The notes under the pieces: generated by a model
Databases searched by the model: none
What the model saw: the letters and a program-made list of their open reading frames with translations, nothing else
Told to the model about the DNA's origin: nothing
Shown: piece after piece, positions 1 through 54,546 of the stretch
How positions within the stretch are numbered: the stretch's first letter is position 1
How the letters are laid out: each line of letters begins with the position of its first letter
From: a virus
DNA: 54,546 nt
Strand: one strand, 5' to 3'
IMG/VR virus record: IMGVR_UViG_3300032562_000035
Span: 1-54,546 of that record
Translations under genes and position numbers: made by a program

Positions 1-126
1 CGCATCCAGGCCCCCGCCCCGCCCCCATAGGGTGAAATTCGCGGCAATCGCGCCGTACGTACGCATAAACGAGTGCCGGTCCTGGGCCGGTCCATATGCC
101 GCCCGGGTGCCCCCGGGGCTGACCCC
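1..126. repeat. Terminal direct repeat, left copy
   Basis: The first 126 bases match 54399-54524 exactly. Identity stops at base 127, where the right copy turns into a run of C. This shows the contig is circular or terminally redundant. The length is close to a common assembler k-mer overlap, so an assembly overlap is as likely as a true packaged repeat. Confidence 0.95.
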
Positions 127-170
127 GCCCCCGCCCCGCCCGACGATCCGGGGAAATCCGCCCGGAGCCA

Positions 171-391
171 GGCAGAATCTGCCGAGTCGATTTTGCCGAG
201 TCGAACGTGCCGACCGGCAGAATCTGCCCAGAGTTCCCGGCAGAATCTGCCCAGCCCCAAAACCAGGCGGCACTATTTACCTATGGGCCAAATCTGCCCG
301 GGTGGGCTGCCGGATGTGCCTATCGGCACTATCGGCACGTTCAAGATAGGTCGAATCGACCCATTGTCAATATGCCTAGGCCAAATCTGCC
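171..391. repeat. Array of GGCA-N5-TGCC palindromes
   Basis: Three exact copies of GGCAGAATCTGCC lie at 171-183, 216-228 and 239-251. Near copies GGCCAAATCTGCC lie at 286-298 and 379-391, with half-sites ending in TGCC between them. Centre spacings of 45, 23, 47 and 93 bp are close to multiples of 23. The same palindrome occurs singly elsewhere in the genome, including inside promoters, so this may be a cluster of binding sites for one DNA-binding protein. Confidence 0.7.
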
Positions 392-612
392 ACATTCTAA
401 CTCTCGTCCTATATTCCATTCCAGTTATGCCAATTTGCCCCAGGGCATGCCGAATGGATTCACTAGGGCAATGGGCAGGGCAGACTAGCACTAGGGCATC
501 CTAGGGCATCCCAGAGTTAGGGCAGGGCCTAGAATGAGCTTCTCCGGCAGGGCCTAGAATGCCCTAGGACTAGCCGAATCTCCCAGGGCCTAGACTGGGA
601 TCCCCCAGCTAC

Positions 613-678
613 CCTAGGCCATCCTGGAACCGATCCTAGGCCATCCTAGAACCGATCCTAGGCCATCCTAGAACCGAT
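613..678. repeat. Three 22-bp tandem repeats
   Basis: Units at 613-634, 635-656 and 657-678 each begin with CCTAGGCCATCC and end with ACCGAT. Units 2 and 3 are identical and unit 1 differs by one base. A partial fourth unit starts at 679. The units sit at the end of the CTAG-rich block and just beyond the 3' end of the peptidase gene. No function is evident. Confidence 0.85.
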
Positions 679-745
679 CCTAGGCACGTACATGATTCGG
701 CCCCAGAGAACATCCCCAGGGCCGAATCGCAGTATTAGTCTGTAA

Positions 746-1882
746 TCAATACAGGGGTCGGGATTTACGATCATTCCTCAAATTACGGTAACCGATACGC
801 TTCCCTTCTTTAATTCCATCTTCCCTAGCGCGGGTCAGTGAATCCAGGATCATATCAGATTCAAATCCACTGGGATCTAGTCCCAGGATGTCCACTAGTT
901 CAGCTAATTCCGTATCAATTACTGAAATGGTAGTATCAGCAATTTTGCAAATACCCTGATACGAATAGTCATGACTGGGAGCCGATTTAGGATAATACCA
1001 GTCTTTCTTCTCCCAGGTATAACCATAGGTTGATAGGCCATTATAATCAGAGGATGTATCAGGACCTTCACAAGGTAGTGACTCCCAATCTAGTTTAATG
1101 CATTTATCCCTTAATTCGCTGTAGTATCCATAATCCAATGTTTCCTTGGGTCCATGGTTACTAGCATAGCCAATTGATATATTCACTATTTCTTGAATCT
1201 GCCCTTGGAATTCAGAGTTATCTGTATAGGTCCCGCAGTCCCAGGTATGTCCCATGTCTAGTCGGCTAGAAAGCTCACTAACGAAAGCTTTGGATGCCAA
1301 AGTACCACAAAATTGCTCTCCGCAAATGTCTTTTGTACCTTTGCGATCAAAAGCAATGCACCTTTTAACACCTTTAATCATATGCTTCATTTTTGTAGCG
1401 GCGTATTTTCCCCCCGATCCACCTTTTTCCTCATTCTGGGAGAACAGGTATAACGCTGGGATGTTTGCCTCAATCATGCATCCCAGTAGGCCAATACCTG
1501 CCCCATCATCTGCCCCTAATACAGTGGATCCATCTGTATTTACAATCCCGTCCAGTCCCATATATATATCAATAGAACCATCTTCGGTTTCAACCGTATC
1601 TAGGTGAGCTTGAAACATCGTGGATTGATCCTCTGGATTGGTCCTAGTGTCAATCCATAAATTACCCTCCAAATCGCGGGATATGGATCTAGCCTTTACG
1701 CTTTCCCCTAGGCCCTGGAGTACATCCATAACAGTCTGGATCCCATTCCCCCCATGGGGACGCTTGGTTCTCAGCGTGAGCCACAGGACCGGTTCATCGT
1801 TGATCCCCGGGTAGCGGTCTTCAATCGCTTTAGCGATTATCCTGGGGGATGATTCATTGGCGTCATTAATTCTAGCATTCAT
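746..1882 (-). CDS. M20/M28/M42-type zinc exopeptidase
   Basis: A 378-aa protein with the ligand series of the co-catalytic zinc peptidase superfamily that contains tripeptide aminopeptidases. H93 and D95 are in 'AHLDTV', D125-D126 in 'GADDGAG', the E151-E152 pair in 'NEEKGG', D179 in 'FDRKG', and H243 in 'NHGPKETLD'. All expected ligands are present, so an active metallopeptidase on small peptides is likely. It is cytoplasmic, with no signal peptide. The start has a GGAG site. It is the last gene of an AT-richer leftward operon (from 3804) with codon use unlike the late genes. A metabolic-type peptidase is not a standard phage gene. Its substrate is unknown. Confidence 0.8.
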   Translation of the reverse strand: MNARINDANESSPRIIAKAIEDRYPGINDEPVLWLTLRTKRPHGGNGIQTVMDVLQGLGESVKARSISRDLEGNLWIDTRTNPEDQSTMFQAHLDTVETEDGSIDIYMGLDGIVNTDGSTVLGADDGAGIGLLGCMIEANIPALYLFSQNEEKGGSGGKYAATKMKHMIKGVKRCIAFDRKGTKDICGEQFCGTLASKAFVSELSSRLDMGHTWDCGTYTDNSEFQGQIQEIVNISIGYASNHGPKETLDYGYYSELRDKCIKLDWESLPCEGPDTSSDYNGLSTYGYTWEKKDWYYPKSAPSHDYSYQGICKIADTTISVIDTELAELVDILGLDPSGFESDMILDSLTRAREDGIKEGKRIGYRNLRNDRKSRPLY

Positions 1883-1904
1883 TGGTTTATCTCCGGTTTA
1901 GTGT

Positions 1905-1934
1905 GGTTTGGTTTGGTTTGGTTTGGTTTGGTTT
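1905..1934. repeat. Pentanucleotide tandem repeat (GGTTT)6
   Basis: Six perfect GGTTT units (AAACC on the coding strand) lie between the stop of the 481-aa gene and the peptidase start, immediately upstream of the peptidase ribosome site at about 1890-1894. Such tracts can change length by slippage, so this one could alter spacing or structure ahead of the peptidase. It is outside coding sequence and would not shift a frame. Confidence 0.9.
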
Positions 1935-1941
1935 AGGCTAT

Positions 1942-3387
1942 TTAGTCGACTTCAGTCACTGGGATACTGTCGATATTGGTTACCCTCAAGACAGTGTTAT
2001 TCAACCGATTAAATCTAGCTGTCACGCCAGTATCCCATCTGACCCTAAAGATATTGTCGTCAATAATACCGTATACGGTTCCCATGACATTTACAGGTTG
2101 GCTCTCATTATAACATTCATACATTTGGTCATCATGCATAACGACCCGATCATTAAGTGTAGGCATCAAACTATTATATGATTCTCCATGCCCAAGCTGA
2201 TATGCAAGCCGGGGATTATCCCTATAGATATCTTCCATCATTTTATAGAGCCCAATATTATCATCGTAATAACAATGGGTATGGTATACATAGATATGAC
2301 CAATACCAGACACATAGACACATATACAGTCCGACTGTAGTTCCCGGTCATATAACGCCCCAGGGTATCTAGTAACTACAGTGTCACAGGTAGCATAGTA
2401 TGCATCATACCGATCCAGGTATGATGCTTCCTCTTCTCTGATATACGTTCCATCGTCTAATTGTAATGATTCGTTCTCATTAATCCAATATCCATATCTG
2501 TCCTGTATCTGCCCCTCATGATCCTCATAATCCAGTATTCCGTCCGTTCTGCAAAATGAACAATTATCGCTTGCATTTGAGATAAAGATACAATCATCGC
2601 CCACTGTCCCACGAATATTATAACCATCCATATATGGGCCTAGCAAAGAGCCATTATAACGAATCTTATCAACTTTTAATCCATCCCAACCGTCAACGCG
2701 AGTATAACCATTGTCCTGTAGCCATTGCCTAGTGGCTGGGTCATCTGGCCTACTGTATTGCGTTGAATCGGTAGGCGTGCCATAGATACGGACATATTTT
2801 TTATCATTTACTAGGACACGGGAATAAGGGATTCCCTTCTCCGTTCGGATAACCATATTCCATCCAAATTTTGGATTATAAACGCGATACGGATGGGTCA
2901 TAGTGTCCCACCCATGGGCATTATGTTTAGTCATACAGGACCTGCAAGTATCGGCACAATCAAACATAGCATTAACAATATCGTCTATATTTGTAAGGAT
3001 CTTATATTCAGATTCTGTTTTATTATATGAGCAGACCAATTTCTCAATCATATGCCCCGGCATAGCGGGGAAAACCCTCGCTAAATATCCCCCAGGTTTA
3101 CAGGATACATGCCTATCTAATGCTCCATATTCAGCATTCCGGGTATAGGCAATGGCTCCAGGGAATTTTTCGGATGGATGGGGATATTCCATTGCCAGAG
3201 CGTTGAGATAAGGATTGATGATCCCAGAAGCCCAATCGAAACCAGTGAATTCCACAAATTCCCAGAATGCATCAATAACGATGGGAGAAAATACGTAATT
3301 AACCTTTTCTCTGTGGATATACGGGAATTCGATAGCTTTATCAGAAGCAAACTGTTCCAGTAGTTTGATAAGGCATTCTTTGCACAT
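1942..3387 (-). CDS. Cys-rich protein of unknown function, 481 aa
   Basis: No family was recognised with confidence. The start at 3387 follows GGGAGGaaaataaa; an upstream in-frame ATG at 3459 has no such site and would overlap the preceding gene. The protein begins MCKEC and holds further close Cys pairs ('CADTCRSC', 'DNCSFC', 'DCIC'), suggesting metal-binding modules. It is rich in Tyr, Asp and Asn. The middle 'TDSTQYSRPDDPATRQW' to 'GSLLGPYMDG' looks like a compact globular domain. It is second to last in the AT-rich operon and sits directly upstream of the peptidase, so the two may act together. Confidence 0.7.
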   Translation of the reverse strand: MCKECLIKLLEQFASDKAIEFPYIHREKVNYVFSPIVIDAFWEFVEFTGFDWASGIINPYLNALAMEYPHPSEKFPGAIAYTRNAEYGALDRHVSCKPGGYLARVFPAMPGHMIEKLVCSYNKTESEYKILTNIDDIVNAMFDCADTCRSCMTKHNAHGWDTMTHPYRVYNPKFGWNMVIRTEKGIPYSRVLVNDKKYVRIYGTPTDSTQYSRPDDPATRQWLQDNGYTRVDGWDGLKVDKIRYNGSLLGPYMDGYNIRGTVGDDCIFISNASDNCSFCRTDGILDYEDHEGQIQDRYGYWINENESLQLDDGTYIREEEASYLDRYDAYYATCDTVVTRYPGALYDRELQSDCICVYVSGIGHIYVYHTHCYYDDNIGLYKMMEDIYRDNPRLAYQLGHGESYNSLMPTLNDRVVMHDDQMYECYNESQPVNVMGTVYGIIDDNIFRVRWDTGVTARFNRLNNTVLRVTNIDSIPVTEVD

Positions 3388-3388
3388 T

Positions 3389-3676
3389 TTATTTTCCTCC
3401 CATGGCATATGAACTAAGGACGTTGATAGCGAGGATTGACATAGGCATGTCATCCCCATACAGGGAGATATTCCGGGCTGATTTGGCGATTAAACGAAGC
3501 TGCTTATTCAGCATTGCGTCAATGGTTCGATATGTAGTATCGGCATCAAATGAGGCTAGAGCTTGACGGTAGGCCAGTTCAAATTGGATATGAATTTGAT
3601 AGGCGTAAAGGGAAGAATCCATAGCCATCGCTGCGGCTGGGATGGCCCTAGAGGACGTGTTAGCGATTCTAGGCAT
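3389..3676 (-). CDS. Unknown 95-aa helical protein
   Basis: The start at 3676 is set by GGGAGGtaacaatc. The longer ORF from 3763 would run through the upstream small gene. The protein is mostly helical and alanine-rich, with 'YQIHIQFELAYRQALASF' in the middle and no membrane segment or known motif. Its stop is one base before the next start, and its ribosome site overlaps the end of the 40-aa gene, so translation is probably coupled. Function unknown. Confidence 0.65.
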   Translation of the reverse strand: MPRIANTSSRAIPAAAMAMDSSLYAYQIHIQFELAYRQALASFDADTTYRTIDAMLNKQLRLIAKSARNISLYGDDMPMSILAINVLSSYAMGGK

Positions 3677-3681
3677 GATTG

Positions 3682-3804
3682 TTACCTCCCAAAGGAAATG
3701 GTCACTAGGATGGCAATTAGGCCTAGCAATAGGCCAAGTTCTAACTCTTCTAAAGTCATACATTTAAGCCATTGGATAGTATGGATTTTATAGTGGTGGG
3801 TCAT
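3682..3804 (-). CDS. Small membrane peptide, 40 aa
   Basis: A short ORF with a good site (GGAGGtactacc) and ATG start. The N-terminus is polar ('MTHHYKIHTIQW') and the C-terminal half, 'LGLLLGLIAILVTISF', is one membrane helix. The stop codon lies within the ribosome site of the next gene. It is the first gene after the strong promoter at 3840-3867. Small leader membrane peptides in phage accessory operons may affect the host envelope; here that is inference only. Confidence 0.6.
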   Translation of the reverse strand: MTHHYKIHTIQWLKCMTLEELELGLLLGLIAILVTISFGR

Positions 3805-3839
3805 GGTAGTACCTCCGACAGGCTGGATCGCCTAAGCAC

Positions 3840-3867
3840 ATTATAGGCCCAGTGTGCCGAATGTCTA
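3840..3867 (-). promoter_or_regulatory. Leftward sigma70-type promoter with operator-like spacer
   Basis: On the minus strand: -35 TAGACA, a 16-bp spacer, and a perfect -10 TATAAT. The spacer holds GGCACACTGGGCC, one mismatch from the GGCA-N5-TGCC palindrome. Transcription would start near 3833 and read the 40-aa, 95-aa, 481-aa and peptidase genes. The spacer closely resembles that of the promoter at 54283-54310. Confidence 0.75.
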
Positions 3868-5005
3868 TCATCTATTAGTGTTTTCCCTATAGCCCAAAAC
3901 TAGGCAATATTTGCCTGGAGATCCAGGTAATCCAGCTAGGGTAGAAAACGAAACCAGGATGCCCCGGGAATGGGCCTAGGATGCCCTAGGACACGCGATA
4001 GGCACGCTGGGCCATAACTACCCTCGAACAATAAAACGGCAGGTTTCCAGTATTCATGCGGTTCTAGCCCATTTTTGAATGTTGTTACATCCAATCTTCA
4101 TTCGCGTTGATATATCATTTCACCATGTCTATTTACGCTTTTCTTTTGTAGATACTAGGCAATAGTTGCCTGGCCCTATCAGGGGGGGTGACCAGAAGTT
4201 GCAACATTATATGTTTGAACATGCATAGGCCAATGGATGAATGTCATAACATGCATGTTGGAACATTGGGTTGCATGACATCCATTAAAGAGGTAATGGA
4301 ATACAACCGAAATGGAATATAGATTGGATCTACAGTGTAGAACATGCATGACCCTTCTTATCTGATTAGTAAGAATACTCTTTACACAGTAGATCAATTG
4401 AGTAAGAAACCATTCCCTGCGTGGTGGGCATAATGTGTAGGGCATAAGGCAAAGGATGCACAATGGGTGTAGTGGGGGATACCCTTTTTGCCCATTGCGC
4501 CCCATCGTATTAAAAAACCTTAGCGCAATACACTCAAGGTATATTCTGCCCAGGCGCAGCTAGACCAGGCAGTATCTGCCGGGAGATCCAGGCAAGACCG
4601 ACCCACCTAGCAAGCCGAGGTAGGCAGGATCTTCCGGGCTTGGCCGGGGTTATAAACACAAACCCGGGGGGGATGGGACCACGAACACTAGGCGGGGGGT
4701 GCTAGGGATACCCTCTCCCCAAAAGCGGGGCGTTTTCAGAACCCATTCACTTGCTGAGTTTACGCTCGGCAGCCAGGTATTGCCCAGGGAGGGGCATGGT
4801 GTTGTCGGAGGAGGTGGAGTGGGTGTCGGGAGACACAAAACGCCAGGGGAAAAGAAAGGCCTTATACCGTCCAGGAACTCGCTAAGTGTTTTAGTAGTGG
4901 TGGTGCGGGTTTGAAAAGAATTCCATTTAAGTAATATGGGGGTATGTTTTGAAATTCTAAAGGACTTACGGCCGCGAAATCTTGAAAGATAAGGAAACTT
5001 GCTTA
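3868..5005. other. Non-coding region with scattered palindromes
   Basis: About 1.1 kb without a supportable gene. Exact GGCA-N5-TGCC palindromes occur at 3903-3915, 4158-4170 and 4568-4580. AACATGCAT occurs at 4218-4226, 4248-4256 (part of the palindrome ACATGCATGT) and 4341-4349. ORFs at 4179-4505 (minus) and 4699-4914 (plus) have neither ribosome sites nor protein-like composition. It separates the AT-rich leftward cassette from the rightward RepL-like gene. Confidence 0.65.
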
Positions 5006-5014
5006 TGTTAAAAT
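5006..5014 (+). promoter_or_regulatory. Possible extended -10 promoter
   Basis: TGT-TAAAAT forms an extended -10 element in an AT-rich stretch, about 27 bp ahead of the winged-helix gene. No good -35 box is at normal spacing. The predicted start is near 5021. Confidence 0.4.
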
Positions 5015-5040
5015 TCGTAAGTGAAGATCGGGGGTGGTAG

Positions 5041-5523
5041 ATGTGGGAGTTGAACCCAGAGTTGGCGTTTACGGTCAGGGGAGGGGTATGCCAGGCAGTG
5101 TTTGCCTATTTGGTGAAGGCCATGCCCCGTGGGTGCCAGACTGTCAGGTTGAGGGACACGGATTTGCGGGAGCGGTATCACCCCCAGGTTTTGTGGGAGG
5201 CGTTGACGGGTTTGGCAGACCAGGGGTTGATCAGGCGGGGTGGGAAAACACGAAGCTGGGGGTTGATCTGGGTCAACCCGTATGTGATCCGGCACCACTG
5301 GCTCCATGGGCAGCGGTTGGATGAGGCCCTGGAGGCATACCGGCAGGGACCCAGTGGATTGGCGGAACTCTTGTCGAAGGGCAAGCATGACAATGGGGCC
5401 AATGCCTTCGGGATGAGTGACCAGGAACGTCTTGAGACCGCCACTAGGCTAAGAGAGATGCGCCTGGAAGAGAAGAGGCTTCTAAGGGAGAGATCCAGTC
5501 TCAAGAGAGAAAAGAAGACATAA
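5041..5523 (+). CDS. RepL-like winged-helix DNA-binding protein
   Basis: A 160-aa protein. The opening 'WELNPELAF' and later 'WGLIWVNPYVI' have the layout of RepL-type plasmid replication proteins and related phage regulators, where a winged helix sits between such strands ('LRERYHPQVLWEALTGLADQGLI' is the likely recognition region). The C-terminus is a charged helix rich in Arg, Lys and Glu. The start follows a GGGGGTGG stretch. It stands alone, in the opposite direction to both neighbours, which suits a regulator or initiator. A GGCA-N5-TGCC palindrome lies inside the gene at 5094-5106, which hints at autoregulation. Choosing between initiator and repressor is not possible from sequence alone. 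Confidence 0.6.
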   Translation: MWELNPELAFTVRGGVCQAVFAYLVKAMPRGCQTVRLRDTDLRERYHPQVLWEALTGLADQGLIRRGGKTRSWGLIWVNPYVIRHHWLHGQRLDEALEAYRQGPSGLAELLSKGKHDNGANAFGMSDQERLETATRLREMRLEEKRLLRERSSLKREKKT

Positions 5524-54398: not shown

Positions 54399-54524
54399 CG
54401 CATCCAGGCCCCCGCCCCGCCCCCATAGGGTGAAATTCGCGGCAATCGCGCCGTACGTACGCATAAACGAGTGCCGGTCCTGGGCCGGTCCATATGCCGC
54501 CCGGGTGCCCCCGGGGCTGACCCC
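54399..54524. repeat. Terminal direct repeat, right copy
   Basis: Identical to 1-126. Bases 54525-54544 are all C, where the left copy reads GCCCCCGCCCCGCC, and two more bases end the window. The C run probably comes from two-colour sequencing poly-G read ends rather than real DNA. Confidence 0.9.
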
Positions 54525-54546
54525 CCCCCCCCCCCCCCCCCCCCAC

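Follow-up and report, generated by a model that had tools for sequence, protein, structure and literature searches.

The question raised by the virus record IMGVR_UViG_3300032562_000035 of IMG/VR, which was analysed here over its whole length of 54,546 bases (the window), is which genes of a low-GC block in it belong together and what they may do. The block (746-3804, minus strand) carries four tightly packed open reading frames (ORFs) of 40, 95, 481 and 378 aa, as an earlier note on this DNA had described, and a Shine-Dalgarno-like stretch precedes the ATG of each (by eye). We found that the genes of the 481-aa protein and of the 378-aa predicted peptidase make up a two-gene unit that is widespread and conserved in phages and also occurs on some plasmids. 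The 481-aa protein was named the SCM protein from its conserved Ser-Cys-Met. The two genes are as follows.

1942..3387, minus strand: 481-aa SCM protein, the peptidase partner, with relatives directly upstream of peptidases in hidden Markov model (HMM) and tblastn searches
746..1882, minus strand: 378-aa predicted dizinc exopeptidase, PepT-like catalytic domain without lid (phrog_4191, predicted model)

Single-sequence scans of IMG/VR with the peptidase and with the 481-aa protein gave no matches, while a scan with a peptidase alignment did find relatives; at least 562 were confirmed among at least 597 matched stretches, and the best 80 were kept. Using an iterated SCM profile, an SCM ORF was detected upstream and on the same strand in 79 of these 80 loci, and in the 80th the peptidase ORF starts 49 nt from the contig end. 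Since many of the 80 loci have neighbours in common and seem to represent one uncultured phage group, they are not independent. From the SCM protein of the window, tblastn reached Rhizobium phage Pasto (E 2e-3) and Klebsiella phage RMN1 (E 0.1), and in both phages a peptidase gene from the same family comes immediately after the matched SCM gene; independently of the profile, the window protein alone also matched plasmid pTEGF4 (tblastn, E 1e-18). The same order was present in Pectobacterium PP16, Pseudomonas C171 and Vibrio FE11, and the pair was found in all five Autographiviridae-type regions examined. In Autographiviridae it belongs to the early region and immediately precedes the primase, and entire host-genus sets retain it. 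Bradyrhizobium phage BDU-MI-1 (121 kb) and Escherichia phage Minorna carry the pair as well. Four peptidase records came from plasmids, and the three examined all have the pair; in 84,980 species genomes a scan located the peptidase at 11 loci, of which seven have the SCM gene upstream, and among 398 genomes of one phylum an SCM gene was found in the seed genome only. The independent carriers are Autographiviridae, the uncultured group (terminase phrog_38 in the tested representative), BDU-MI-1, plasmids and the window virus; phrog_2 and phrog_332 were the best matches to the terminase and portal of the latter.

The window and loci L002-L103 together hold 107 peptidase ORFs, and 97 of them were scored as members of an adjacent pair. 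Two of the ten unpaired ORFs are cut by contig ends, one (L084) has an adjacent SCM ORF but was scored unpaired, since the overlap of the two stop-to-stop ORFs exceeds 300 nt, four belong to two phages with genomes of 635-642 kb, and three come from contigs of bacterial metagenome-assembled genomes. A small gene separates the two partners in L021, L023 and L025. Records of isolate phages were tallied by the first word of the organism name and compared as totals, not record by record. On this basis the RMN1 SCM query found 231 Klebsiella, 42 Vibrio, 10 Escherichia and 4 Shigella records, the PP16 SCM query found 51 Pectobacterium, 3 Dickeya and 3 Pseudomonas records, and the peptidase query gave the same counts for those seven genera. 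The peptidase was further found in 10 Thermus, 7 Bacillus and 5 uncultured records, no record of these three kinds was among the results of the two SCM queries, and no partner of SCM size precedes the peptidase in the one Thermus region examined. Gene trees of 93 pairs (four of the 97 are omitted, each on account of a short fragment) gave distances correlated at r 0.94, the best of 500 permutations reaching 0.26, and the SCM gene evolves faster than the peptidase gene, with a median ratio of 2.25 at close range and 1.18 at long range. Because many phages and a few plasmids keep both genes side by side, the two proteins probably act on the same target, early in infection.

Several features of the neighbourhood were recorded along the way. 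BDU-MI-1 (L087 1709-6339) has the order SCM, peptidase, rIIA lysis inhibitor. The gene between the two partners (L021, L023 7548-7976; L025 7667-7975) belongs to a family with an HTPGPW motif, with relatives elsewhere in L025, L055 and L070. The Methylobacterium indicum plasmid pVL1_2 (L102 54-9452) holds three SCM genes and two peptidase genes, arranged as SCM-SCM-peptidase followed by SCM-peptidase, an amplification of the unit. In L013, L014, L019, L024, L076 and L084 three more shared genes (clusters c28-c30) lie 3' of the peptidase, of which by eye one is MoxR-type ATPase-like and one zincin-like.

The HMM search that had been proposed for the two larger proteins placed the peptidase in phrog_4191 (E 5e-51). 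Against Pfam M28 (PF04389) it scored 13.6 bits, below the gathering cut-off of 21.3 that its relative PP16 gp11 clears with 35.4 bits, and against NCBIfam TIGR01883 (PepT-like) it scored 29 bits, below the cut-off of 274. Its AlphaFold2 model (mean predicted local distance difference test score, pLDDT, 77) was superposed, by its residues 25-269, on the tripeptidase 3rza with Z 25.6 and a root-mean-square deviation of 2.5 over 236 residues at 18% identity. The window protein has the catalytic domain in common with PepT/M20 tripeptidases (SAV1512, 3rza) but is without their lid or dimerisation domain, for which there is no room, as the catalytic domain fills about residues 25-271. H93, D95, D125, E151, E152, D179 and H243 are identical in 93 of 93 aligned sequences, which bears out the earlier claim that all metal ligands of the exopeptidase are intact; E151-E152 are presumably the catalytic Glu and a metal ligand. 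We regard the 378-aa protein as a predicted M20/M28/M42-type dizinc exopeptidase with an intact metal site.

1427..1432, minus strand: codons of E151-E152 of the peptidase, identical in 93/93

The SCM protein contains the core of its family, namely S150-C151, Y170, R190, P251-Y-x-D254 and G283. Among the 93 aligned sequences Y170 is, like S150-C151, identical in all ungapped rows, while H165 is found in 84, R190 in 90 and G283 in 93. With 15 Cys in 481 residues, the protein is only mildly the Cys-rich one that had been announced. In most relatives the core is followed by a CxxC...C zinc ribbon. The predicted model has a mean pLDDT of 77 and is confident over its N-terminal 290 residues; by VIA nearly all of the 50 rows listed were acetyltransferases or related enzymes by title, over about residues 123-233; the best Foldseek rows were likewise acetyltransferases or related enzymes. 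The structural matches among the rows listed include MprF and ATE1, and in Foldseek also FemX and Sba18, which are enzymes that use aminoacyl-tRNA, in part judged by title. The weak match of the model suggests a GNAT-like core.

2689..3021, minus strand: putative GNAT-like core, residues 123-233 of the SCM protein (predicted model, best Z 7.8)
2935..2940, minus strand: codons of S150-C151, identical in 88/88 ungapped rows of 93 aligned

Among the closest known counterparts are the early genes of Autographiviridae. Their phrog_4191 'peptidase' (KP34 gene 11) is like the window peptidase in family, in metal ligands and in the type of partner upstream (KP34 gene 10), at about 30% identity. The KP34 gene 10 type (phrog_6980/phrog_13313, families of unknown function) has the S-C-M, R190 and P-Y-x-D motifs and the position ahead of the peptidase in common with the window SCM protein, which differs in its shorter N-terminus, its 21-23% identity and the absence of the zinc ribbon, and which is matched by neither of those models (among the PHROG models only phrog_18715 appeared, at E 0.11). 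Unlike Autographiviridae, the window virus shows no relative of a T7-type RNA polymerase (queried with a partial Pasto sequence), and the other proteins tested, two DNA polymerases, a helicase and a primase, likewise have none there. The early region in which the pair lies is defined in the CB5 paper, the available part of which predicts a function for the peptidase only (PMC6115819), and in the part available of the Kp34likevirus paper KP34 genes 10 and 11 are separate core genes (PMC4411677). In our literature search, with most subscription journals and all preprints outside its coverage, the pair was nowhere named as a unit.

A further point of comparison is Rac of phiKMV-like phages, a predicted GNAT fold in Autographiviridae whose action is tied to proteolysis, namely to cleavage of the host RNA polymerase alpha subunit, according to the part of the source available (PMC7552054). 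Rac requires an acetyl-CoA (coenzyme A) pocket, and no phage peptidase partner is described for it in that same part (PMC7552054), whereas the SCM core has no conserved CoA loop; the likeness is in the predicted fold and the link with proteolysis. PcfJ of pCF10 (Pfam PF14284) was also considered as a relative of the SCM protein, since by eye its motifs follow one another in a similar order and it appeared in two weak Foldseek rows. Two profile comparisons (pCF10, seven phage regions, four PF14284 loci) gave this candidate no support, with hhalign probabilities of 0.1 and 0.4 percent. In pCF10 (L104 35873-37983) the PcfJ gene adjoins a gene annotated as an AcrIIA9-family Cas9 inhibitor, so PcfJ may have a partner too.

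Taking these results together, we tentatively favour a reading in which the pair is an early unit of phages and plasmids whose SCM protein modifies or presents an amino-terminal or aminoacyl group that the peptidase trims, though we hold it with less than even confidence. A low-GC operon with the SCM protein and then a lidless dizinc exopeptidase as its core would have been acquired horizontally and would be made early in infection. The GNAT-like core with its invariant Cys would link an acyl or aminoacyl group to an amine, or present it there, on a host protein, a peptide, or a small molecule or amino-acid-linked signal, and the peptidase would remove or trim an N-terminal or aminoacyl residue of the same substrate, so that modification followed by trimming may serve host takeover or counter-defence. 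This reading is favoured because of the early position of the pair and because of Rac, by which phages of Autographiviridae do use a GNAT tied to proteolysis. A bolder form of it, to which we give a rather low chance, is that the pair is a previously undescribed two-enzyme system: SCM proteins would be Cys-dependent, GNAT-like transferases of aminoacyl or acyl groups, a family of its own that does without acetyl-CoA, and the lidless exopeptidase would edit the same mark, the two jointly rewriting host N-termini or aminoacylated signals early in infection. The position and distribution of the pair make it plausible that it may act in phage-host conflict or signalling.

A number of observations weigh against the proposed modification and trimming. 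The GNAT acyl-CoA loop has the motif Q/R-x-x-G-x-G/A, and position 203 of the SCM family is variable there (K in 37, G in 16 and A in 11 of 93); since the loop is not conserved, the SCM protein was not filed as an acetyltransferase. The best VIA score, Z 7.8, is below the safe level of that tool and can be reached by unrelated folds, and Foldseek against the PDB gave nothing at E <= 0.001 (best E 0.036). The SCM protein matched no Pfam, NCBIfam or PADLOC family, and a profile of 47 family members gave nothing better than E 1.3 against PDB sequences; a Pfam scan of the same 47 members gave stray rows only, none better than E 0.014. At the three ribbon columns that are C in 98% of the 47 rows, the window protein has gaps or other residues. 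The peptidase also exists without an SCM gene, in the huge phages L099 and L100, in L088, L091 and L092, and, judged by annotation, in Thermus phage G20c.

The nearest rival, possible but doubtful in our estimate, makes the SCM protein a non-enzymatic adaptor or inhibitor that recruits or gates substrates in place of the missing lid, the complex breaking down peptides of the host, for instance signals, peptides of bacteriocin-like kind or products of degradation. The near-obligate adjacency in a fixed gene order with short gaps or overlaps, the lack of an M20 lid in the peptidase, and an SCM protein that matches no known catalytic family and changes faster at close range, as expected of the part that binds the target, all agree with it. 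Against an adaptor, the invariant S150-C151 and Y170 together with the near-invariant H165 and R190 resemble an active site, and the peptidase is kept alone in some phages. It is somewhat less likely still that the pair is a detoxification system of counter-defence, inactivating an amino-acid-linked signal or peptide-nucleotide of the host immune system as the acetylase MccE and the peptidase MccF give immunity to microcin C. The pair lies in the early region of lytic phages, its plasmid copies are near relaxase, methylase, toxin-antitoxin or toprim genes, it adjoins an ArdA antirestriction gene in Pasto, and rIIA is a neighbour in BDU-MI-1; however, the PADLOC anti-phage defence profiles matched with 0 families for 6 proteins at E <= 0.1, and conservation in whole phage genera exceeds that of an occasional counter-defence gene.

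Plain metabolism, in which small peptides recycled by the peptidase would feed phage protein synthesis, with the SCM protein as an auxiliary, appears improbable: the PepT-like catalytic domain would suit it, but a large, fast-changing and near-obligate partner and the plasmid copies would be left unexplained. Least probable is DNA modification by a Mom-like GNAT acting on nucleobases with the zinc ribbon binding DNA. Such a role would draw on the GNAT-like core, the ribbon of the SCM family and the presence of Mom-type GNATs in phages, reported in the accessible part of PMC7824862, but the SCM protein of the window is without the ribbon and an exopeptidase has no evident role in such chemistry.

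KP34 genes 10 and 11, with their relatives, belong to the conserved early genes of a large set of phage isolates (231 records for Klebsiella), and at present the two carry separate annotations, 'hypothetical protein' and 'putative peptidase'. Seen as a single unit, one that is also plasmid-borne, they pose one testable question, that of the shared target. If the pair does edit host proteins or immune signals, it would be a new route of takeover or counter-defence.

The other two genes of the block did not recur with the pair.

3682..3804, minus strand: 40-aa peptide with a hydrophobic stretch (by eye)
3389..3676, minus strand: 95-aa protein (ORF)

In phmmer searches among the compared loci the 40-aa peptide had no significant relative (best E 0.08) and the 95-aa protein likewise none, and the latter had no match in the 'phages' collection or IMG/VR. 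The four genes as a single travelling unit were therefore rejected, recurrence being limited to the peptidase and the 481-aa gene. The check set by the earlier note, whether the genes travel together across unrelated phages, came out in favour of this pair, which occurs on plasmids too, and against the 95-aa and 40-aa genes, which have so far not been met together elsewhere.

The low-GC block is a real segment of foreign composition, as had been claimed from its lower GC and different codon use. GC is 0.428 in 746-3804 vs 0.584 in 5041-end. At third codon positions (GC3) the values are 0.41 (378 aa), 0.38 (481 aa), 0.47 (95 aa) and 0.48 (40 aa), against a mean of 0.73 (standard deviation 0.05, minimum 0.63) in 30 other window ORFs chosen by the analyst. 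The codon-usage distance is 0.66 for the peptidase and 0.71 for the 481-aa gene, and at most 0.39 for others (18 of the 30 ORFs, those with at least 200 codons). The claim of a promoter of its own with a perfect -10 agrees with a site at the operon head, as a consensus match only.

3840..3867, minus strand: sigma-70-like promoter TAGACA-16-TATAAT, 11/12 consensus matches, 36 nt 5' of the first ATG
490..672, no strand assigned: CCTAGGNNNNCCTAG-type repeats of the left flank (motif matches)
3975..3990, no strand assigned: CCTAGGNNNNCCTAG-type repeat, right-flank copy (motif match)

A site scoring at least 11 was present in 12 of 100 dinucleotide shuffles of 1-5100; as such sites are not rare, the promoter counts by its position at the operon head. 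The number of promoter-like sites was dropped as evidence, since the 10 found in 1-5100 are no excess over the 11.5 expected (standard deviation 3.0). The CCTAGGNNNNCCTAG-type repeats have 12 matches in the window vs 0.9 expected, all at 490-672 and 3975-3990; since they flank both sides of the block, they are compatible with its entry as a unit, which they do not prove. That the block is a horizontally acquired operon with a two-gene functional core is part of the explanation we favour and is likewise put forward tentatively. The term moron, used in the earlier note, fits the deviating composition and the promoter-like site but undersells the pair, which belongs to an early region and is kept across host-genus sets.

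No terminator-like site with a T run was found beyond 746. A hairpin GATTCGGCC...GGCCGAATC without a T run follows the peptidase stop (694-728, minus strand, by eye), and at 613-685, just past the peptidase, a 29-nt repeat occurs three times with a spacing of 22 nt. No tRNAs or RNA elements were found in the window. About 137 bases are repeated at 98.5% identity between its ends, 1-148 and 54399-54546 (140 of 148 letters, all mismatches lying close to one end), which makes it probable that the record is a complete genome with terminal overlap. The palindrome GGCA-N5-TGCC has 18 copies in the window vs 2.1 (standard deviation 1.6) in shuffles, at positions that include 171, 216, 239, 3903, 4158, 4568, 5094, 9775, 10905, 17370, 18414 and 18921; seven of the 18 lie around the cassette, and the palindrome is possibly the operator of a phage regulator.

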